Positions 4,448 through 61,396 of a stretch of DNA of 64,000 nucleotides are shown here, piece after piece. Below the pieces are notes generated by a model. The model had not been told where the DNA came from, did no database searches, and was given only the letters and a program-made list of their open reading frames with translations. The position numbers and the translations under genes are program-made. The stretch is from Voacanga thouarsii (taxonomy: Eukaryota > Streptophyta > Magnoliopsida > Gentianales > Apocynaceae): NCBI GenBank assembly GCA_026120185.1, contig JANUWF010001659.1, positions 5,208,001 to 5,272,000 on the forward strand. The letters are read 5' to 3'. Every line of letters begins with the position of its first letter. The first letter of the stretch is position 1.

Positions 4448-5989
4448 TTCTGAAAAATCGAAAATAAAAGAAAAAGATTTAGTTTGTGAAACAAAACAAA
4501 TTTGTGCACTTTATCCTTATATCAAAACTGATAATAATTAATTTGCCTCTTAGGGAAATTGACATAGCTTCTTGGGAAGATTAATAGTTCCCTAAGCTAA
4601 GTGTGTTGACCACCACAAATTAATTTTCCTTCTAAGTAATAATCTAGAGGATAACTCCATCGAGGGGATGGCCGTCTCCTCTCATTTCCTATGGACATAC
4701 CTCACACTATAATCTCCAACGTGGGCTGGCCGATCACAGTACGTGTTTCAAGTTATTAATTACATCCCATCTATTAAATCTAGATCTTTATTGTATCCTC
4801 AGCCTATACGGGTTCACCACCAGGGTGACACGAGGGGACCCATGATCTCTAATGAGGATTGTGATGGAAGCCGTGGGGCCGTTGGAGCCCCTTTCCCACT
4901 TAGTCTTTTAAAATAAGGGTTTTCTGAAAAATAAGGTTTATATCATTTGAGAGATTTTTCCATGGACTAATTTTATTTAAGTTAAAAACTTAATGATTTC
5001 AAAAATTTTCAAATTAAAACTTTCTAAATAGACTTTGGTCTTAAGTTTATTTGACAAAACATTTTTTCTTGTGCAAAAATAAAACAAAATGGCTTTCTAT
5101 TTTAACTTACAAAAATATCTAAATCCAATATATTTTCTATGTCAAGGATTAAATGTTTTGAGAAAATATCTAAGGATTAATTTTTGTTCAAGTTAAAATA
5201 ACCATTCAATTTGGAGAAAAATGTTTTTCTTGTCAAAAATATTTCCAAAGACTTTGGTGTTTGAGAAAACGTGCACATAGGTACTCAAAAATAAATAGCA
5301 TGCTAGAAAACAGTAGATGATTTCATGCTTTTCTATTGTTTGACATAAATGCCCAGATATTAGAATTAAACACATCAATTAATTAATTAATGGTCTTGTT
5401 TAATCCTAAAATCCCTTACTAATAATTTTCATGCAAAAATATTCCATGAATATTAACTATTGCAAAAATATTAACTTCGCCTGGTATGAACCCCAAAACT
5501 AAAAAGAAAATGCAAGAAAATTACAAGGAAAAATAAAAAATTTCTCATTGGTCCATTGTACCCGCCACACTGGATTGAAGCCGTTCTGCGCTGCGGTCCA
5601 CAACACCTGCCGCATAGAACTAGACCTCGCGGGCGACCCACGTGCAGACCCGAGCTGGCGCCGGTTCTGGTTTGTCCGAGTTTTCTTTCTGCAGATTTTT
5701 CTACTGTTTCTTCTCTAGTTTTCTGCAATTTTCTTCCTCCATTAGCTCTCCGATTTCAATCCTAACACAATGAAATCAACAAAAACTAACAATCGTCTAT
5801 ATCCATTAACATTAGGCTTGCACGATTTGCTAAGGAAAAACCAGATTACATTTTACCTATACCTCTATCAGAGAAGTTTAACAGAGAATCTATCCATACA
5901 AAAAATAGCAAAAGATCACAGTTTAATCACACATATGTATCTAATTTTATTCAACTAAATGCATGCTTCCTATATTTTCACAAAACCTT
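4448..5989 (-). other. copia-4 untranslated leader
   Basis: A stretch of 1.5 kb between gag start and primer site with no convincing reading frame. The short open stretches on either strand near 5470-5960 have no recognisable motif and are not called as genes. A GC-rich segment near 5610-5675 contains GAGCTGGCGCCGGTTCTGG, a motif that recurs in the Athila-type element (see findings). Long leaders are also present in copia-2 and copia-3. Confidence 0.55.
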
Positions 5990-47285: not shown

Positions 47286-48577
47286 TGTTAGCCCTAAGGG
47301 CATTCTCCTATGTTTTGACTTATGAAAAATATTGATGAGGATTAACTTGTGTGACCTGCATGTGATAGGACATGTTTGATCTCAGTTCTTCCAAGGCGTG
47401 CAAATAAGATTGCTAAGCAACTCTTAAGCAATAGAATCTAAGAATGGCTGATGAAGTAGAAGACCAAGCTTAACAGATTACATAATAAGATATCTTTGTG
47501 GAAGAACCTTAAACTAGGAATTTATGTTAAGGTATTATCTACGTAAATTTCTATGTCTTCCATACCTTATGATTCAGTTTATTTCTACCTTGAAGTACAC
47601 AAACAAAAAGATTTCAAAGTTTTAAGTCTTCAAAATTTTGGATTGAGTAGTTTAGATAACTTTGCATCCAAAAGCTTCATTCAAAACTTTGTGAACAGTG
47701 TCAAATCGATTCTACCTAAAAAAGTGTCATTTTGGACTTACCTTTTGAACGCACCATCGTCCGATCAATGAGTCCAAAACTATAGCAAATCTAACAGGGT
47801 GAAACTAGCTATTTCTAGCCATTTGAGGTCTACTTTTTACTTTTATAAAAGGTTTCAAAAATAAATTTTAAAGTTGATTTTTGTCATATCTTTCTAAGAA
47901 ACACACTTACTCTCTAGAAAATAAAAATCTCCTTTTCATAGTGCTTCAAAGTGAAATCAAATTGACTCAAAAAGCTCAAGGTTGTTTGAGCTCATTTGTT
48001 TTTATATCTGCTCAAAAGAGTGAGCGATCTTTATTTCAATCGTATAATCCTCTTTGTGTATCAAAGTTGTGGTGTAAAACCCATTTGGAGTGAACCTTAA
48101 TTTATTTTTTGATTGAGATGCTTTGGTAAAACCAAATATGGTGATCTTATTATATAATTAGTGTAGATAGACACCATCAAGTTGGCTGAATAAAATCTAA
48201 TTAAAAATCCTTAAGTGTGAGCTTAAGGTAGTGGATGTAGACGTTGATAGATTAAACCCCTATAAATCTTGTGTTCTCTCTCTCTACACTTAATTTCGGC
48301 CAGCTGCAAACTTCCTTGCGTAAAATTTCTTAAATCTCTCAAAAGAAATCTTTATAGTTCTCACCAACCCATTTTCACTCTTATATAAATTGCATCGTGT
48401 GTCTTACCTCATTCATATTTTTGTTGATCTTTAAGGCATTTCAAAAGCTTCTGTTGTATCAAATGCAATTTTTCCAATCTGAAATATAAAGGAGTTCCTC
48501 AAAATAGAATTTTTGAAAAGCATTTTAAATTTGCCAAAAAACCTTATTCACCCCCCCCCCCCCTCTATGGTTTTTCA
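47286..48577 (+). repeat. 3' LTR of SIRE-type element
   Basis: TGTTAGCCCTAAGGGC to GGTTTTTCA, 1292 bp. It ends shortly after a run of about 14 C (48551-48564) within ATTCACCCC...CTCTATGG, a pattern often seen at the U5 end of SIRE LTRs. Geminivirus-like sequence starts immediately after. Confidence 0.78.
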
Positions 48578-49862
48578 GTGGGTCTCAATGGTAACATGGT
48601 GGGCCATCTGACCTGATAAACTATACAAGTGTGGTGCGATCAATCGTATCAGGAATGTATAATTGGAGGCTATGTCTTCATGGAGAAGATTTAAATAGTC
48701 AATATGAAAATGACATCGTGTTGCAATAGTCAGTGAGATTGTTGTATTCAAATTAAATGCATATCTGAAATGACATCTAAACTTTTGTGGGGTTTTAAAC
48801 TAAATGTAGGAGTTGTTAGATGTGAAAAAATGCTAGCAATTTCGGTGAAAGTTACAACCGGTTCATTTTGAAGATATATAGGATTAGACTAATTTATAGC
48901 AGTAATAAAAACTGGAGAGATGGTAATTATGTTAATAGGAGTGGAAATATGCACGTATTGGTACAGTAGATGAGACTATTATTCCTGGGTCGGTCGTTGG
49001 TAGTGCTTGTGTGATTGAAGACTTTCCTACAATGCCTTCATTGAGGAGTCTGCATTCGCAAAGAAGGAAAATAGGATTTGTTTGGGGTCTGTGAATTTTA
49101 ACGGATCATTTACTATTGTGAATTCTCTAGTTATAAAAAATGAAGATGTGATAGGGGAGAGTGATGTTAAGCCTTATCCGTTGATTGAAGTAGTGTTGTC
49201 ATTTTTCCTAGTACTTGACAGTTGGCCTGGAAGAGATGCGAAGCCATAATTGGCAAATTTTTTTGATGCTCCAACCAGTTATAATGGGTTCAAGACCAAT
49301 CTTCATAGTAATGCCCTTTTTGTAACATTTTGAATTAATAGTCGTATAGTATTTTATAATTAAGGTGGCATTTTGACAATCTTCTTATGCATTTTATTGG
49401 TTAAATATATCAAAAGTTGAAAGAACTTCAATTGCTAATTTGGTTACATTTTAAAGTCTAAACAATTTAAACTAATATCTTGAGCGGTGTCACCGTTATA
49501 GATAAATAAAGCTCAAAGTGAAGTTTAATGGGCCATTTACAATGGATATGCTAATTAAAAAACAAAACATGTTCTATTTTACATTGGCTGCATAGCGGGA
49601 TACAAAAGGAATACAACGTTAAATATTTAAATTGGCCTGCCACATGGCTGAGGTTTATTCTTGTGATACAGTGAAGCAATGACATAGGTCATTTTCATAT
49701 TTCTGATAATTAGGCTAGGTCCAATTGAATAGTATTGGATATACTATTTGAACCCTCTTGCGAAATAGATGTTGGGCTATCAAGCACATGCCTAATATTC
49801 GGAAGCAGATTGCTCAATATCATCAGTGCACATGCCTGATATTGGGAAACAGATGGCGCAAT
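48578..49862 (+). repeat. partial second viral copy, inverted (left arm)
   Basis: Aligns along its length with the reverse complement of about 49863-51375, from GTGGGTCT...ACATGGTGGGC to the junction tandem repeat. By eye roughly four bases in five match. It carries a more damaged copy of the shuttle-protein-like gene. The part that would contain the origin is missing, cut at the SIRE LTR. Confidence 0.85.
48874..49333 (+). pseudogene. BV1-like (nuclear shuttle protein) pseudogene, left copy
   Basis: Parallel to the right-arm copy (51069-50354). The start codon ATG is ATA here (48874). Recognisable short matches include VDETIIPGS, TMPSLRSL and VLSFFLVLDS. Stops and frameshifts occur after about 49080. 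About 165 bases present in the right copy (between NLH and the SNAL segment near the C-terminus) are deleted. It ends at TGA 49331-49333. In begomoviruses the BV1 product carries viral DNA between nucleus and cytoplasm; this copy cannot be translated into it. Confidence 0.68.
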
Positions 49863-49883
49863 ATCATCAATGCACATGCCCGA
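49784..49883. repeat. 44-bp tandem repeat at the inverted junction
   Basis: Two 44-bp units start at 49784 and 49828, with a partial third at 49872, each beginning GCACATGCC and containing CAATATCATCA. They sit between the two opposed viral arms, so the junction is palindromic overall but holds this directly repeated block. Confidence 0.85.
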
Positions 49884-50044
49884 CGGCCCAGCATCTATTT
49901 CCCAAGTGGGTTCAAATATTGTATCCAATAATATTCAATTGGACCCAACCTGATTATAAAAAATAGTCACATCCCCTGTCATTGTTGCACTGGATCACAA
50001 GAATAAACCCTAGTCACGTAGCAAGCCAATTTAAATATTTAATG

Positions 50045-50230
50045 TCATTTTCTTTCTGAATCCCATTGTGCGGACAATGAAAAATAGAACATGTTTTGTT
50101 TTTTAATTAGCATATCCATTATAAATAGCCCATCAAACTTCACTTTGAGCTTTTTCTTATCTACTATGGTGACACCGCTCAAGATATCAGTATAAATTGT
50201 TTGCACTTTAAAATGTAACCAAATTAGCAA
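50045..50230 (-). other. unidentified open stretch shared by both viral arms
   Basis: Reverse-strand frame reading TDILSGVTIVDKKKLKVKF with continuation FDGLFIMDMLIKK. The left arm has the same segment with stops (49440-49600, TNILSGVTVIDK). It lies between the end of the BV1-like gene and the unit boundary, where the 3' ends of the two DNA-B genes normally face each other. I do not recognise it. It might be a displaced coding segment of the virus or chance. Confidence 0.35.
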
Positions 50231-50353
50231 CTAAAGCTGCTTCAATTTCTAATATATTTAACCAATAAAATGAATAAGAAGTTTGTTGAGATTCCACCAT
50301 AATTATAAAACACTGTACGACCATTAATTGAAAATATTGCAATACTTAGGAAT

Positions 50354-51069
50354 CTACTTTCCCCAAGTTATAAAATAAATAAGGGCATTACTTCTAATAT
50401 TGCCATAATTACCCCCTGTATGACCTATATCATCTCTGAAAGACGTATAAAAACAACTATAACCAAATAATACTTTGAACTCATCAAATGAAATTACACG
50501 ACCAAGCCCCACTCCTTGAACAACTTCTTTGAACCTCATCAACACCCTAAATTGATCTATTTCATTAGAACTGATATGAAGATCGATATTGAATCGATTA
50601 TAACCAGCACGACTCCTAATAAAATTAGCATGTGATGGCTTCGCATCTCTTCTAGGCCTACTGTCAAGTACTAGGAGAAATGACAACACTACTTCAATCA
50701 ACGAATAAGACTTTACATCACTCTCTCCCATGTCGTCTTCATTCTTTATAATTGAAGAATCCACAATAGTAAATGATCCATTAAAATTCATAGACCCCAA
50801 ACGGATCCTATTTTGCCTCCTTTGTGAATTCAGAATCCCTAGTGAAGGCATTGTAAGAAAGTCTTCAACCACACAAGTACTATCAACGGCTGACCTAGGA
50901 ATAATAGTTTCATCCACCATTCCAGTATGTGCATATGTACTATGACTGTAATTTTCACGCAATCTATGTCTATTAATATATAAAAAAAATTCCTTTTCTC
51001 CCTCCCACTAATATTATTACCACCTCTCCTATTATTAGTACTACTATATATTGGTCTAATCCTATACAT
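50354..51069 (-). pseudogene. BV1-like nuclear shuttle protein pseudogene, right copy
   Basis: ATG at 51069 begins MYRIRPIYSSTNNRRGGNN, an Arg- and Asn-rich N-terminus of the kind begomovirus shuttle proteins have for nuclear import. A base loss in a T run near 50982-50990 shifts the frame; the remaining 202 codons (50962-50354) are open. The total would be about 238 residues against about 256 in the family. Matches to the family by recognition are the beta-strand block LIEVVLSFLLVLDSRP, the SFDEF/LFG segment and a C-terminus of the pattern NYGNIRSNALIYFITW. It lies about 410 bases downstream of the origin, as in DNA-B. A coat protein, the distant relative, is the alternative. Confidence 0.72.
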
Positions 51070-51479
51070 CTTGAAAATGAACCAATCGTAACTTTCACCG
51101 AAATTACCAGCATTTATTCATATCTAACAACTCCTATATTCAGTTTAAAACCCCAAAAAAGTTCAGAAGTCATATTAGATATACCTTTAATTTGAATAAA
51201 ACAACATCATTGGCTAGTGCAACATGATGTCTATTTCATATTCACTATTTAAATATTAACCCTGAAGAAATGGCATCCAATTATACATTCCAGATATGAT
51301 TGACCACACCGCACTTGTACAATGTATCAGGTCAAATAGCCCACCATGTTGGCATATAAGACCCACAACATAAACTTTACATCCTAAATTCAAAATTTTA
51401 ATTTGAATTTAAATAGTTCCCAACAATAAAGTTACTTCAATTGGTGTGGGGCCCACTATTTAGTCACTCTAAATCCGGA

Positions 51480-51508
51480 GGACATCCGGTAATATTAAAC
51501 AGATGGCC
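51480..51508 (-). other. geminivirus origin of replication stem-loop
   Basis: On the reverse strand the loop holds TAATATTAC (51489-51497), the invariant geminivirus nonanucleotide where Rep nicks. It is flanked by GGCCATCTG (51508-51500) and CGGATGTCC (51488-51480). Seven of nine stem positions pair; the arms resemble the GGCCATCCG stem of begomoviruses. The placement between the two divergent genes is as expected. Confidence 0.85.
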
Positions 51509-51510
51509 GG

Positions 51511-51553
51511 ACAAATGGAGTGTGGAGATGCAACCCAAAAGACTTCTATAAAT
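51511..51553 (+). promoter_or_regulatory. common-region elements: iteron-like repeats and TATA box
   Basis: Next to the stem-loop on the BC1-like side, TGGAG occurs twice (51516-51520 and 51523-51527), the size and position of Rep-binding iterons. TATAAAT at 51547-51553 lies about 140 bases before the BC1-like ATG on the same strand. Short motifs, so moderate confidence. Confidence 0.5.
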
Positions 51554-51691
51554 TCCATTGTAGTTATTCCAATTCAGGGCACATATTAAATTATAGTGAG
51601 TTTAGGAGCATCTACAATAAGTTCATTATTTTCTTAAATACCAATAAGTCTCCATGATTTAAAGAAGTGAATCTGTCTACCCACCACAGCA

Positions 51692-52390
51692 ATGAAGTTC
51701 TCTGATGTTAAATCACTTGACCAATACTTTAGCTAAAGAACATGTGAATCCTTTATGACATCTAACCTCACAGAGATCAAGCTCGCATTCCCTACCTAGC
51801 TTGAAACCTCGCTACAATATCTTGGAGGACATTCCCTTTATATCGACCATCATGAAATTCAATATAAACCAAAGACCCCATTCAGTGTGTAGTAAATTTT
51901 AACAATGTGTGTTTTTAACACTAGATTGATCAGTCCTGGCCAATTACTGGTAGAATACAAATTCCCCATTAACTCCTTGTTGAATTACACTATTATGGGT
52001 AATCTTACATCTCAATAAGCGATCCTTGTCCCCAGAAAATCTTGTATAAGGTCACACAATTGAACATTCACTCAAAGACTAAATTATATGAAATAAAGGC
52101 TTTTGTACAACTCTCCAGTGTAAAGAAGCCAATGGAGATGAAGTATTGACAACCGACGACAACAATACATTCGGATGTGTTCACTCAAAATGACATCAAT
52201 TTTTTGGCATGTCGGCTAGAAACCAACACCTGAAATATTGTACTAGTCAATGTCATCTTCATGTGCCAGAGAAAGTCAGTCATTCCAAATTCCACAGGTC
52301 ATTTCTTTCCAAAAGGCCAGATCATAACTTTCAGAAGGCCCAACATCAAATATAGGACAAACATTAAATATTAGCCCAGCCATATGTAAT
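51692..52390 (+). pseudogene. BC1-like movement protein pseudogene
   Basis: From the ATG at 51692 (MKFSDVKSLDQYFS, then a stop), the same frame holds NLTEIKLAFPT, YIDHHEIQYKPKTP and GQLLVEYKFPINSLL. A later frame holds HSDVFTQNDINFLACRLETN. These resemble, in order and spacing, the N-terminal half of begomovirus movement proteins. Many stops and at least one frameshift. The 3' end would, by circular permutation, continue around 49900-50200. In the virus the BC1 protein moves DNA through plasmodesmata. It is judged by recognition and by position on the complementary strand beside the origin. Confidence 0.6.
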
Positions 52391-52458
52391 GATGATATTG
52401 GGCCATCTATTTTCTAAGTAGGTTCAAATAGTATATCTATTACTATTCAATTGGACCC

Positions 52459-53910
52459 TGATAGGGGCTAAAATTACCATTATTTTTCTACTCATTTGAG
52501 GTTATTTTGTGATACATTAGTTATAATAACTAGACATATTCCTTCCTATTTTACACTTTACTTGTAAAAAGGGTTTTTGGCAAATTTGTGCAGATTTGAG
52601 AAAAAATCGAGTAGAAAGTGAAAAATTATAGAATGTACCTGGCGCCAAACCCAACCAAAGAACTAGGCGCCGAGTCTATTCTAGTCCAGCAGAAGAATTC
52701 GATCAACTTTCAATACAAAAGCAGAACAGACCAGGTGCCAAGTCTAGCAAGAGTTCCTGTCGTCAGGTCCATTCTGTCTACTGAGGAGAAAAGAAAAAAA
52801 ACAGAGCAAAAACAAAGGAAGAACAGAGTGCACCTGGCTCCCAATAGGTCAAAGGTACTCGGTGCCAGGTACGCTCTAGAGGGCAAATATTCTATGCACG
52901 AATTTTGGAATTCTCCAATGATTTTAGTATTTTTTGAATCCTACTAGGGCAAGACTTCCTAAGCCAAGAATTGAGCATCCAAGAGTCCTATAAAGAAGCA
53001 TTATTCAAGTAAGCTACTTAATGACCACTTAAAGGAGTATTATTCAAAGTTGGTTTTCAAGAGAAGAAGAAGTGTTTGTCTATGAGTTTTATCATTTATC
53101 CTTTGTTTACTTTTCTAGAACAATGTTGTGCTTAATATTTTGATTGTAATTGGATATTATTTTGGAGATTATGATTTTAAGTTAATTGGATTTTTTGATC
53201 AATTGATTGTTGTTCTTGTGATTTGATTACTTATTTTTCTTACGGAGTTGGTTGATTGATTTTTGTTATTAACTTGCTTCAACAAGAGGTTGGTAATGAC
53301 TTCAATTAATTAATTTTCATATTTGTTATCTCTTATCTTATTTGAAAAATGGGTTAATTGGTTATAATATTGGTAATCAAATGTTAGTTGATGATTACTA
53401 GAATAAGGATTCATTGACTAATTTCATGTTTTAAATCACCTAGAATACCGGGGTTTATATGAAGATTGATTTTAATGTATCTTTTGGATATGTTAGTCTA
53501 GACAGAATATGTTCACTAGTTTAACTAAAAAATAGTGATTTATGGATTACAAACGAAGTAGGTCTATGTTAAATCCTTCATGATGCAAAGACGACGATTG
53601 ATTGTGATGAATACTAAGTGATTTAATATTATGTTTTCAAGATAATTGTCTAGTTACATGAAATTGCATCCTTCAGTTATATCTATTTTTATTTTTATTT
53701 ATTTTCCTTTTTAGTCTCTTCTTATTTTATTGGCTAAACAATAAAGATTTGGGTAAAGTAATATGGGAACCTAAGTTCTCGTGGATTCGATACTTGCTAT
53801 TCCCTATACTATACAATTGGTATACTTGCCTGTATGTTTGGTTTTAATGGTTGGCATTTTAATTAAAGCTTGATTGATTGTGTAACTTGTTGGTAATATT
53901 TATTCTTGGA
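52459..53910 (+). repeat. Athila-type LTR, forward
   Basis: Starts TGATAGGGGCTAAAATTACC and aligns with the reverse complement of the LTR ending at 55428 (shared TTTTGTGATACATT, AACTAGACATATTCCTTCCT, CGTGGATTCGATAC near the end). No internal Athila sequence follows it, so it is a solo or truncated LTR. Its 3' end is uncertain. It contains several GGCGCC-centred motifs (52642, 52667, 52735). Bases 53911-53989 separate it from the opposing LTR and show nothing distinct. Confidence 0.72.
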
Positions 53911-53989: not shown

Positions 53990-55428
53990 GTTTAAATTAA
54001 AACGTTCAACCCGAACTACACATATGAGCAAGCATACTCATCATTAACCAAGCATAGGGTTCAAACGAGTGTCGATCCTCAAGAAACAAGTAGACATTAA
54101 TCATTTTTCTTTCATTGTTTAACTGACTCAATAAAGTGAAAGAGAAATAAAATCAAACAAAAGAAAATAAAAATAAAAATATATACATGTCAAGGATGGA
54201 GAATGTAACTCAAATCATTGTTTAGACAAGCACGATCTCAAAGTACCTAACCATTATCATAACTAATCATTCTCTTGGCACCATAAAGAATTAGGATAAA
54301 TTAGCACCACTTGGTCTATCTCAACTAATTCATCCACAAGATGCATTAAACACAATCCTTGATTAAATTTCCTTAGTTTGGCAAATTTAAAACATGAAAT
54401 TAATCAACGAATCCTTGGTCTAGCAAACATCAATTAACCTTTAATTACTCAATCCTCAACAATTAACCTCTTTGGTCTAGCAAGTTAACAACCAATAAAT
54501 ATGAAATTAATCAATTGCAACCACCATCAACCTCTTTGGTCTAGCAAGTTAATAAAAAGAAACAACCAATTAATCTTGTAATACGCCCAAGTAATTAAAT
54601 ACCAAGAAGAACAATCAATTAATCAAAAGATCAAATAACTCTAAAAATCATGAATATCTAAAACAATGTCAAATTACAATAAAACAATTAACACATCATT
54701 GTTCAAGAAAAAGAAAACAAAGTAAAAGAAAGCACTCATAGATAAGCCTTATTCTTCTTCCTTTGAAGACCTTCTTGCACAACCCTCATTTTAATTGAAG
54801 AATTCCTCCTTTGATTGAGTGATTTTCTATGATGATCAATGAATTCCTCCCTTTTCCCCTGTGTTTTCCATCTATTTATAGGCTTAGGAAGTGCCCAAAC
54901 TCGTAGGTACAATGTTCTTGGCCAAGTAGAATTTGAAAAATGCTAAAACTCCACAGATTACCAAAAATCGCGTAGAAAAAATCAAGTACCGCCTTAACTT
55001 CAGGGCATAGCCGGCCCTGCCTTGACTCTTGGAACCAGCGCCGGTTGTGTTCTAGTTCTCTACTTGTTCGCCGATTTTTTTTGAATTTTACACAATGAAG
55101 ACCAGAATGCAGCCAGCGCTGCCTTGACCCTTGGAGTTGGCACCAGTTCCACTTTGTTTTGCTCTGTTTCACCAATTTTTTCCATTGCTTCAAAGTTTGT
55201 GTCAATAATGCATGGTCGTCGCTAGTTCTAGTGCCCTAGCCGGCGCTGCCTATAATCTGTTTTGCGACGTTTTTGTTTTATTTTATCCCAAAAATCTGCA
55301 ATAATGATTAAAATACCTTTCTAAGGGTAAAATCTCAAATATGAAGGAATATGACTAGTTATTGAATAAAATGTATCACAAAAGAACTCAAATAACTAGG
55401 AAAAATATGACTAATTTAGTCCCTATCA
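53990..55428 (-). repeat. 3' LTR of the Athila-type element
   Basis: Reverse strand start TGATAGGGACTAAATTAGTC at 55428; the left end is estimated near 53990. It contains repeated GC-rich motifs such as AGCCGGCGCTGCC (55237), CCAGCGCCGGTTG (55035) and CAGCGCTGCCTTGACCC (55113). Confidence 0.75.
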
Positions 55429-57158: not shown

Positions 57159-58597
57159 CTACTCCGTGTTGGGAAGACCTTCTCCCACATAGTGTTTTAT
57201 GCGATTGCCATTGACTTTGAAGGTGCCCCTAGTGGGGTGAGTGATTTCAAAGGTGCCAAAAAGGAATATCTTACTCACTGTGTAGGGTCCCCACCACCTT
57301 GATTTCAATTTCCTTGGAAAAAGTCTTAAACGAGAATTGAAGAGCAACACTTGATCGCTTTTCTTAAATTCATGTTGTTGAGTGATATGCTTATGATGCC
57401 ATCTTTTGACCCGCTCCTTATATCGCATTGAACTATCATAAGCCTCTGCCCGCAATTCTTCTAAGGAGGTCAGTTGAAGCAACCTGGACTTACCAGTTGA
57501 CTCAAGATCAAGGTTAGCAAGTTTAATAGCCCAATAAGCTTTATGCTCAATTTCAACAGGTAAGTGACATGCTTTGCCATAAACTAACAGAAACAGAGTC
57601 ATGCCAATTGGTGTCTTAAAGGCTGTCCGATATGCCCAAAGAGTATCGTCCAATTTTAGACTCCAATCCTTCCTAGTATGGTTAATTGATTTTTCTAAGA
57701 TTTTTTTAATTTTCCTATTGACCACTTCGACCCGTCCACTGGTTTGGGGATGATAGGGGGTGGCTAACCTATGGTTCACACCTAGGTGTTTGAGAACTTT
57801 TTTCATTTGTGCATTACAAAAATGAGGCCCCCTATCACTAATGAGTACCTTAGGCACACTAAAATGGGTGAAAAGCTTTTTCAAAAATTTTACCACACCC
57901 CTTGCATCATTAGTAGGTAAAGTTTAGGCTTCTACCTATTTAGAAACATAATCCATTACCACCAAAATATATTTATTCCCCAAAGAACTAGGAAAAGGTC
58001 CCATGAAGTCTATCCCCCAACAGTCAAATACTTCACAAGCTTAAAAATTTTGTAATGGCATCTCATTAGATTTAGAGATGTTACATGTACATTGACACCT
58101 ATCACAACTTTGGACAAACTTGTGGGCATCTTTGAACAACGTGGGCTAATAGAATCCTATGTCAAGCACCTTTCTTGCAGTGTTGTTAGCTTGGTAGAGG
58201 CCTCTAGCAAGTCCTTCATGGCAATGTCTAAGAATATCGTCGCCTTCCTTAGAGTCCACGCATCTACGAATGATTTGGCCCGCACAACACTTAAACAAAT
58301 ATGGGTCTTCCCAAAAGTAATGCCTTACTTCGAAGAGGAATTTCTTCTTTTATTGCATCATGAGATCTTTTGGAGTAATTCCTGCATCCAAGTAGTTAGC
58401 AAAATCGGCGAACCATGGGGTGTTTGGAATCTCACCTTCGATGAGCTAGAGTTGCTCATTCGGAAAAGCATCATCGATGTCCTCTTCTATCAAGGATTCC
58501 AATTTGGATTGTCTAATCTTAAAAAGTGATCCACAGCCAAGTTTTTTGTACCCTTTTTGTCCCTAATCTCCAAATCAAATTCCTGCAACAATAGAAC
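57159..58597 (-). pseudogene. Athila-type integrase
   Basis: Open frame 57896-57159 (245 codons) holds the second catalytic Asp (ISDRGPHF, D21) and catalytic Glu (GRVEVVN, E57) with 35 residues between them, then [13 protein letters not shown] and the C-terminal [19 protein letters not shown]. The N-terminal zinc region and first Asp (57897-58597) are recognisable only in fragments with many stops (for example [13 protein letters not shown]). No chromodomain, as expected for Athila. Confidence 0.85.
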
Positions 58598-59076
58598 TCA
58601 TCTTATCAACCTTGGTTTGGAATCATGTTTGGTTAGTAGGTACTTTAGGGCTGAATGGTCCGTATAAACAATGACTTTGGATAGAATAAGATAAGAACGT
58701 AATTTATCAAAGGCAAACAGTATAGCACGCAATTCTTTTTCCATTATTGTGTAGTTTTCCTGCACATCCATTAAAGTCTTGCTCGCACAGTATATATGTT
58801 GGAAGTGCTTATTCCGCCTTTGTCCCAATACTGCACCACCTGCAAAATCACTTGCATCACATATTAATTCAAAGGGAAGAGACCAGTCAGGTGCAATTAA
58901 AATAGGTGAATTAATCAACTTCTCTTTGAGTATGGTAAAAGCGTTGAGACATTTTTCATGAAAATTAAACACAGCATCCTTTTCAAGTAAAGAGGTAAGA
59001 GGTTTTGAAATTTTTGAGAAGTTAAAGATGAACCTCCTGTAGAAACCTGCATGACCAAGAAAGCTTCTTATAGCTT
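58598..59076 (-). pseudogene. Athila-type RNase H
   Basis: Open frame 58972-58598 with catalytic acids D39 (LICDASDFA), E80 (MEKELRAI) and D105 ([12 protein letters not shown]). It is separated from RT by 100 bases with a frame change (58973-59076). RNase H degrades the RNA template during cDNA synthesis. Confidence 0.83.
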
Positions 59077-60158
59077 TTACCGAAGTAGTGGGAGGTAGCT
59101 TCTCAATTGCTTCAATTTTGGCCCTATCACCTCTATACCCTTCCTTGAAATTTTATGCCCCAACATAATACTTTCTTGAACCATAAAGTGGCATTTTTCC
59201 CAATTAAGCATTAGGTTAGTCTTTTCACATCTTGCTAGAACATTTTCAAGATTAGATAAACACAAATCAAACGAATCACCAAAAACTGAAAAATTATCCA
59301 TAAATACCTCCATGATGTCCCCCACGAGTCCTTCAAAGATAGCTGTCATAGACATTTGGAATGTTCCAGGACTATTGCATAGACCAAACAACATCCGACA
59401 ATATGCAAAAGTACTATATGGACATGTAAAAGTTATTTTTTCTTGGTCTTCTGGAGCTGTGGGAATTTGTAGGTAGCCCAAAAACCCATCCAAGAAAAAA
59501 TAGTACTCATGTCCAGCTAACCTTTCCAATATTTGGTCAATGAAAGGGAGAGGAAAGTGATCTTTCCTAGTGGCTTTGTTTAGCATCCTATAATCTATGC
59601 AAAATCTCCAATCTGTGATCAATCTCATAGGGACTAGCTCATTTTTATCATTGGGACTCACCGTCATTCTCCCTTCTTAGTTACCACTTGAGTAGGACTC
59701 ACCCAAACACTATCAGAAATAAGGTAAATGATGCCTGAATCTAAGAGCTTAACCACCTCACCTTTTACCACTTCACTCATATGTGGGTTCAACCTACGTT
59801 GGGGTTGTACTACAGGTTTTGCACCTTCTTCCATTAAAATCTTGTGAGTGCAGAATGATGGACTAATGCCCTTAATATCAGTAATCTTCCAAGCTATAAC
59901 TCTCGTATATTTTCCCAACATACTTACTAATTTGGTCTTTTGTTTAGTATTGAGATCTTTGGCAATGATGTCAGGCAATTTACATCCTATAAATAAGAAA
60001 ACGTATTCCAAATGCTCGGGCAGGTCTTTGAAGTCTAATTTGGGAGGATCTTCTATGGATGATTTCATTCTCCCTAAACTGCTTTTCTTAATTTCCAAAT
60101 TATGCATACTATCCTCATTGTGAAAGTCCTTTAAATACACCATTGATGTTTCTATCAA
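59077..60158 (-). pseudogene. Athila-type reverse transcriptase
   Basis: Two open pieces (60158-59664 and 59667-59077) meet at a frame change near 59665. The first carries the pre-RT linker and the RT start (GAKPVVQPQRRLNPHMSEVV). The second has RFCIDYRMLNKATRKDHFPL, the first catalytic Asp (FLDGFLGYLQI, D60), and the active-site box VFMDNFSVFG at residues 121-130, in which the second Asp is Asn. That change alone would abolish polymerization. Confidence 0.87.
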
Positions 60159-60364
60159 CTCCTTCTCAATGGATTCCTACATCAAATCAAAAATAGGTTC
60201 GTCGAGAATATAAACTCTTAGATAAGAATCATCAGAAAACACAGGGTGTTGCATGCTCTTGTGGACTTGAATGACTACTTCTTCATCCCCAACCCTAAGT
60301 GTCAACCTCTCCCCCCCCCCCCCCCATGAACATCAATTAATGCTTTTGCTGTAGCTAGGATGGG
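60159..60364 (-). pseudogene. Athila-type protease-RT linker
   Basis: Connects protease with RT. A run of about 16 C at 60309-60325 lies inside it, breaking the frame by length. Nothing else is recognisable. Confidence 0.55.
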
Positions 60365-60703
60365 TCAACCTAAGATTAAAGGGACTTTCGAATCTTCATC
60401 CATGTCAAGAATAACAAAATCCACAGAAAATATGAATTTATCAACTTTTACCAACACATCTTCTATTATGCCCCTAGGATATTTGATAGATCTATCCGCG
60501 AGTTGAATACTCATTCTAGTGGGCTGTAGTTCTCCTAGGCCTAGCTTTTTAAATGTTTTATATGGCAATAAATTAATGCTAGCACCTAGGTTAGCTAATG
60601 CATTACATACATAAAGAGCGCCAATTAAATATGGGATAGAGAAACTCCCTGGATCATTTTCTTTATTGGCAAATTCAGTTTGTCCTGCAAGATAGCTGAG
60701 CAT
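60365..60703 (-). pseudogene. Athila-type protease
   Basis: Reads ALANLGASINLLPYKTFKKL then TRMSIQLADRSIKYPRGIIE and FVILDMDEDSKVPLILG. The catalytic position of this family (usually DLGAS) is NLGAS here, so the active Asp is lost. It overlaps in another frame with the end of gag (60625-60703), reflecting a frameshift. Confidence 0.83.
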
Positions 60704-61396
60704 TCTTTATTGAGGACCACTGTGGACAACTCTTCCAATTGCTTTTTGTTGACGAGCATGCTTTTAAGAAACTTGGCGTATTTGGGCATGTGAATTAAAT
60801 CTTCACTGAGGGCGATGTTTTTGTGTAGTTGTTTAAATTCGTCAAGAAATTTGTCGAATTGGGCATCCTTTAAGGCTTTGTATAAACGGGTAGGATACGG
60901 TATGTTAGGCTGAAAAGGAGGCTTTTCCGGAGATGGACAGGGGGTAGCCGGCGCCGGTTCCAGTGCTTCGGCTGGCGCCGGTTCAGTTCTGGGTGGCTGG
61001 GTCTCAGGGTTATCGGATAGCCGGCGCTGATTCTCTTCTTCCAGTTGGCACCAGTTGCCATCTGTAATGTCTGGCAACTCTTTTCCACTTCGCAATATGA
61101 CAGTAGCTATTTCCTCACTGGCTATTGGGGTTAGTCCGTGAGATTTTATCACCATGTCCGTCAAAAACTAAATTTTTTGTTCCATGTTGTGGATAATCGC
61201 TTCGAATTTATCAAAGGTGGAATCTATTTCTTGGAAATGCCTCGTGACATGAACAACAAATTTCCCAATTATGGTTTCGAGCTCTACTGATTCTGATGCT
61301 GCACGTGTTATTTCTGAAGTGTAATGGGGGTACTGCCCTTCATTAAACATCCTCTGATTCCAATTCACCATTTCTCCTAAACATAGAAGTGAGTAA
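60704..61396 (-). pseudogene. Athila-type gag C-terminal part, cut by an insertion
   Basis: From 61396 on the reverse strand: LGEMVNWNQRMFNEGQYPHY, then a stop at about 61165, then EEIATVILRSGKELPDI (Athila gag C-terminus) and a Pro-rich stretch (EPAPAEALEPAPATPCPSPE) at 60930-61010. The LQHKNIAL/MPKYAKFLK segment leads into protease. The rest of gag, 5' leader and LTR lie beyond the Tekay-type LTR that starts at 61397. Confidence 0.82.

Follow-up and report, generated by a model that had tools for sequence, protein, structure and literature searches.

The DNA-B component of bipartite begomoviruses is the closest described system to the element reported here: it carries a virion-sense gene of the PF00844 type and the complementary-sense movement protein gene BC1 around an origin with TAATATTAC, within about 2.5 kb, and holds a common region jointly with the Rep-bearing component, such a shared region being a hallmark of bipartite begomoviruses. 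The same plan was found in a 64,000-nt stretch of the 1.35-Gb genome of Voacanga thouarsii (C829:5208001-5272000, referred to as the window), where positions 48578-52458 very probably represent a decayed DNA-B that became integrated and stems from a bipartite begomovirus-like geminivirus, either extinct or not yet sampled, and the same genome holds remnants of the matching Rep-bearing component. Unlike the DNA-B of known begomoviruses, however, the window copy is integrated and broken, is accompanied by an inverted second copy, has a BC1 with 35-37% identity to sampled BC1 proteins in the best stretch, and no free relative of it was found.

Begomovirus-like inserts in tandem, as in this genome, are also known as the GRD repeats of Nicotiana, which to our knowledge hold Rep and origin sequences only. 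The literature picture of endogenous geminiviruses, as far as the accessible text of the sources goes, is Rep-centred (PMC7758297, PMC8000510, PMC8626973, PMC6669703, PMC5014472). EGV1 and EGV2 of yam are tandem begomovirus-like Rep units of 2,642 bp with undetectable coat protein, and in this resemble the Rep units related to the window element (hereafter the window family), but in contrast to the present genome they comprise Rep and REn only, and the accessible text contains no DNA-B terms (PMC5014472). Endogenous geminiviruses of tea, yam and other plants form clustered decayed inserts like those described here; for both Dioscorea alata and Camellia sinensis, a Rep-seeded survey reported 'potential nuclear shuttle proteins' close to Rep, as well as a BC1 label on Camellia transcripts, and in it neither a near-unit DNA-B nor a common region of two endogenous components is described, supplementary tables aside (PMC7758297). 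The sequence-only reading had considered a DNA-B-like insert unusual; given these potential nuclear shuttle proteins (NSPs) and the BC1 label, DNA-B genes do have some precedent in plant genomes. The Olea europaea geminivirus is likewise bipartite and divergent with a PF00845-type movement protein, but differs in that this protein is virion-sense, that its DNA-B is described without a BV1-type gene and that it was reported as non-integrated (PMC8000510); a virion-sense movement protein of the olive type was not found in the window. Endogenous geminiviruses had thus been described before, hints of NSP and BC1 included, but our searches of the open-access literature, subscription papers and supplements aside, found neither a near-unit DNA-B nor any single genome in which the two components occur together and have a common region jointly.

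The locus is read as DNA-B because BC1 and BV1 lie on opposite strands and flank the origin, the unit measures 2512 nt, and a Rep unit elsewhere on this contig has a 208-nt common region with it. The same reading draws on tandem Rep and tandem DNA-B units, on genome-wide matches that control genomes lack, on the proximity of BC1 to most PF00844 matches outside one coat-protein cluster, and on a second family of inserts (family X) with a separate coat protein and NSP and its own A/B common region. What the sequence-only reading had described was confirmed: TAATATTAC occurs exactly, in a decayed stem, between two divergent genes on which profile and protein searches agree, and BC1, BV1, origin, common region and unit length all fit an integrated DNA-B. 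The genes are broken, as it had also claimed, BV1 changing frame (frames 50839-51117 and 50354-51007) and the two window BC1 matches of the genome-wide search (E=1e-15 and 2.8e-5) carrying 3 and 4 stops. Its repeated segment proved to be a 55-nt direct repeat (85% identical, blastn E ~1e-11), although the spacing, which sets the unit length, is 2512 nt and not about 2505; no Rep match lies in the window. The inverted partial copy, the 44-nt tandem repeat and the long terminal repeat (LTR)-like repeat (Table 1) were absent from that reading.

Table 1. Features of the DNA-B-like locus and its right-hand neighbour, in window positions
Feature	Position	Strand	Basis
Inverted partial second DNA-B copy	48578..~49878	-	Inverted repeats I1-I6; alignment to 49872-51372
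44-nt tandem repeat, 2.3 copies	49779..49880	n/a	Inversion centre; resembles BC1 3' end
Main DNA-B copy, just over one 2512-nt unit	49872..52458	+	Terminal direct repeat; full-length genomic matches elsewhere
Left terminal direct repeat copy	49892..49946	+	BC1 3' end; partner 52404-52458
BV1 / putative nuclear shuttle protein gene, virion sense, frameshifted	50354..51069	-	PF00844; NSP by position and contrast
Common region shared with Rep (DNA-A-like) units	51423..51630	n/a	208 nt, 79.3% to L023; beside Rep at other loci too
Origin nonanucleotide TAATATTAC in decayed begomovirus-type stem	51489..51497	-	Exact match; between BV1 and BC1
BC1 movement protein gene, complementary sense, several stops	51692..52458	+	Protein matches to 52203; remainder by similarity to other copies
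Right terminal direct repeat copy	52404..52458	+	Partner of 49892-49946
Host LTR-like repeat adjoining viral right end	52459..53904	+	TG start and family copies

The BC1 open reading frame (ORF) of another copy in the genome (L001) retrieved 16 proteins, all with PF00845 (best E=5e-48, 36-40% identical), and the 15 named ones among them are geminivirus movement proteins. By tblastn all 16, which are BC1 proteins of begomovirus type, match the window at 51692-52203 (+) with E values of 5.8e-13 to 7.7e-17, against 0 matches in the reversed window; for 15 of the 16 the match falls into two colinear stretches, and residue 1 of one reference aligns to 51692, the position from which BC1 had been expected. 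A piece at 52003-52146 (+) also matches PF00845 itself (E=4.5e-8, profile positions 95-142).

The region common to both components of bipartite begomoviruses is about 180 or 200 nt long (PMC6669703, PMC8000510). Between the window DNA-B unit and L023:7012-9440, a Rep unit from its own contig, the similarity consists of the 208-nt common region and a second stretch of 77 nt (50080-50156, 80.5%), with no further similarity at E 1e-3; in family X, the A and B sides have 323 and 345 nt in common at 88%. An extended 17-nt origin pattern, TAATATTACCGGATGKC, was counted 13 times across the genome, whereas its backwards version was not found at all.

Rep genes of DNA-A type had been predicted elsewhere in the genome, and they were found, on the same contig included. 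Genome-wide searches yielded 98 BC1 matches in 51 clusters (20-kb gap) and 74 Rep matches in 52 clusters, whereas none of 14 control genomes gave a match in any of the BC1, Rep and PF00844 searches. On C829, Rep is repeated in tandem at 5184761, 5187211 and 5189655 (spacings 2450 and 2444), with one more at 5196465; the tandem copies lie 18-23 kb ahead of the left end of the window and about 67-72 kb from the element. DNA-B is repeated head to tail about 20 kb past the element (L024:2445-4889, then 4890-5510), and one of the full-length matches to the main copy, 2553 nt at 79.8%, is also in L024. Among 26 loci (L009-L034), which were picked from BC1 and origin matches and are not a random sample, 14 match the window DNA-B body over more than 600 nt and nine hold Rep fragments together with DNA-B (L017, L018, L019, L020, L023, L025, L026, L027, L031). 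BC1 lies within 5 kb of 24 of the 71 Rep matches outside a separate cluster on C552. The locus is about one unit plus an inverted partial copy, set in a wider region where copies of A and of B both occur. At L029:3733-3930, about 0.5 kb past a Rep fragment, stands a ribosomal S3Ae domain (PF01015, E=2.7e-9), apparently a host exon. L033 (G000:C864:772100-777099) combines an open Rep piece of 249 aa (PF00799, E=1e-47) with a begomovirus-type stem that does not match the window common region; its 264-aa ORF matches PF00844 weakly (E=0.005) and gave no capsid match in PDB.

Family X comprises L010, L011, L012, L013, L014, L037 and L040 and has a stem sequence different from that of the window family; it carries Rep, coat protein, NSP and BC1, and L011 holds a fusion joint of Rep and NSP. 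One gene of this family is present in C443 (L040) and C1805 (L037), 81% identical, with relatives in L014 and L010 that lie across the origin from Rep, and a piece of it matches PDB capsids (8ugq, E=4.9e-8; 6f2s, 7e-4). Family X thus carries coat protein and NSP as separate genes.

This bears on the virion-sense gene of the window. A BV1-type match had been anticipated at 50354-51069, and PF00844 (coat protein/BR1 family) does match 50354-50962 (-) with E=2e-12, yet this profile covers both coat protein and NSP and does not by itself discriminate between them. We call the gene NSP rather than coat protein, on its position and the contrast with coat-protein genes of the same genome, because it groups with NSPs (at 33-42% with those of family X and at up to 61% with those of the window family), because the window frame has 0 PDB matches in a single-sequence search, and because a profile of ten NSP pieces finds only 6ek5, a Capsid protein, at E=0.012; the family-X NSP ORF has no viral match in PDB either (best E 0.31). 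Genome-wide, PF00844 gave 66 matches, 60 above cut-off. Outside C552, 53 of the other 57 start at profile position 59 or later (recount), and BC1 lies within 2 kb of 36 of the 57 and Rep within 2 kb of 11. Three of the four early-starting matches were inspected, namely C1805 (L037), C443 (L040) and C1051 (L041), the last being a window-family NSP adjoining BC1, and C1050 was left out. The C552 cluster (G000:C552:997396-1022943, part in L036) is a separate geminivirus-like group of 9 coat-protein-type PF00844 matches, 8 of them at E 4.5e-29 or better, and 3 Rep matches, with no BC1; a piece of one of its genes matches a PDB chain named Capsid protein (E=4.9e-24).

Several observations weigh against a bipartite begomovirus-like DNA-B. 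No relatives were found in IMG/VR, by protein or by origin pattern; only one of six BC1-side pieces gave a Pfam match, the other five giving none; no named NSP was matched, the window BV1 frame and the family-X NSP ORF retrieving no protein at E<=0.01; TAATATTAC by itself is at chance level, 1.21 occurrences being expected in the window; the origin stem is decayed, and the best fold of 44 nt is a different hairpin, the z-score being only -1.35; and neither a target-site duplication nor an empty site was demonstrated for the insert. A tree, built for BC1 only with 16 reference proteins, placed the endogenous fragments outside these references with weak support (79/38), with one long-branched reference and with Old World references absent. 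The citlodavirus-like gene order is that of a monopartite geminivirus with a BC1-like movement gene, and the locus might be a fossil of such a virus instead of DNA-B. While PF00845-type proteins do exist outside begomovirus DNA-B, as in the virion sense of the olive geminivirus (PMC8000510), the window BC1 is complementary-sense, the 2512-nt unit has no Rep match, the Rep closest to BV1 is 61.7 kb off, and the Rep units have only the common region and the 77-nt stretch in common with the window unit, so that a monopartite origin appears highly improbable. That the assembly took up an episomal virus or contaminating DNA is less credible still and can practically be dismissed: free geminiviruses may be widespread and symptomless (PMC8000510), but the frameshifts and stops, the 17% by which the two copies of the locus diverge, retrotransposon flanks with an adjoining LTR-like repeat, a 6.64-Mb contig and the 51 BC1 clusters indicate integration into a host chromosome. 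Nor does a transposon or a host gene family, either of which would have undone the sequence-only reading, account for the genes.

The decay of its copies bears on how the window family multiplied within the genome. The window copy has decayed neutrally: where BV1 differs between it and the inverted copy, the differences spread almost evenly over first, second and third codon positions (23/14/22 of 115 each, p=0.23). It is possible, though on balance unlikely, that window-family copies arose mainly by host-internal amplification, through segmental duplication or transposon-like spread of one ancient A+B insertion, and not by many integrations; the near-neutral ratios of position-3 to position-1/2 differences (1.09 over 18 rows for NSP; 1.22 over 20 rows for Rep, three of these rows being from family X; 1.18 over 18 rows for BC1 read in the L018 frame), together with a coat-protein remnant and a 124-bp repeat that recur at different loci, would agree with such spread. 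However, the ratio in the L008 frame of BC1 is 1.94 (20 rows), and position-3 excess was found in three of six hand-picked pairs (L001/L005, p=1e-14; L008/L026, the most extreme of 20 rows, p=1e-8; L001/L013, p=6e-5), a mark of selection, so that at least some copies came from separate viruses; moreover, in the flanks, compared in part, no common flank or both-end target duplication was demonstrated. The remaining pairs (L001/L011, L018/window and the window inverted pair) showed no position-3 excess. Several viral lineages thus entered the genome, and other copies go back to one source or underwent long decay after entry. The Kimura two-parameter distance of the inverted pair is 0.193, which at substitution rates of 1.3e-8 to 1e-9 per site per year would correspond to an age of 7 to 96 million years, or less if the copies differed before integration.

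Coat-protein loss was observed in the examined window-family Rep units. These units (origins 2448 nt apart in L023) have Rep domains, a weak TrAP match below cut-off (PF01440, E=0.0057 and 0.095) and about three copies of the 124-bp repeat, and the genome-wide profile search gave no PF00844 match in the C829 Rep units. In four of 13 virion-side stretches (L031, L032, L034, L035), the family-X coat protein matched through its final 15-26 residues only, beside the 124-bp repeat (full-query E 4e-7 to 0.01), and the reversed coat protein matched none of the 13 at E 1. L032 (C827) and L034 (C1104) are near-identical inserts on two contigs, possibly both haplotypes or a recent duplication. The shared remnant fits one common deletion before spread, either in the virus or in a single integrated copy. 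Bipartite begomoviruses can spread within a plant without coat protein, and because of this a replicon lacking it could persist inside plants. We raise, with considerable doubt, the idea that the window family derives from a two-component replicon without coat protein, in which A held Rep, probably TrAP, and the coat-protein tail beside the 124-bp repeat, and B held NSP and movement protein; it could have persisted in the plant lineage without particles or insect transfer and have reached the germ line repeatedly, whereas the coat protein was retained in family X.

The inverted copy holds most of BV1 and the BC1 3' end, stops short of the origin and has internal deletions in its BV1 part; it is 83.3% identical to 49872-51372 of the main copy over 1212 aligned columns (131 transitions, 72 transversions). 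Viral sequence ends at 52458 and directly at 52459 begins the repeat that, from its TG start and family copies, is probably an LTR; a relative of it in inverted orientation ends at 55428, L024:940-2417 holds a copy at 83%, and its target-duplication pattern is at chance level only. The same LTR-like family starts or ends directly beside viral sequence in the window, L024, L025 and L027, at differing viral positions. A 22-nt inverted pair (48527-48548 / 52566-52587) resembled the terminal repeats of a transposon carrying the virus, but was rejected as its right member lies inside the LTR-like repeat; terminal inverted repeats of its own and a target duplication, as expected of a host DNA transposon, were not found at the locus. 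Scans of the 64-kb window for tRNA and Rfam families gave 0 matches. ORFs at 568-36000 and 57159-61164, which by eye resemble retrotransposon gag, integrase and reverse transcriptase, presumably fill much of the remaining window.

By analogy with the known family, Rep encoded by DNA-A of the live virus would have nicked TAATATTAC in the common region and replicated the two components by the rolling-circle mode, NSP would have exported viral DNA from the nucleus, and the movement protein would have passed this DNA on to neighbouring cells. Illegitimate recombination may then have brought multimers and A/B joints into the germ line of the plant, in part in inverted orientation, after which the integrated copies would have decayed and been fragmented by retrotransposons. 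The window copy putatively has no present function.

One plant genome thus holds fossils of both halves of bipartite geminiviruses, from several lineages. Insertions dated by sites shared with sister species would give minimum ages of the two-component plan and of the NSP/BC1 pair, which cannot be obtained from living viruses. Endogenisation of DNA-B may be under-counted, because Rep-seeded searches miss DNA-B loci distant from Rep such as that of the window, and the loss of the coat protein at several window-family loci makes an origin from a particle-less virus testable.

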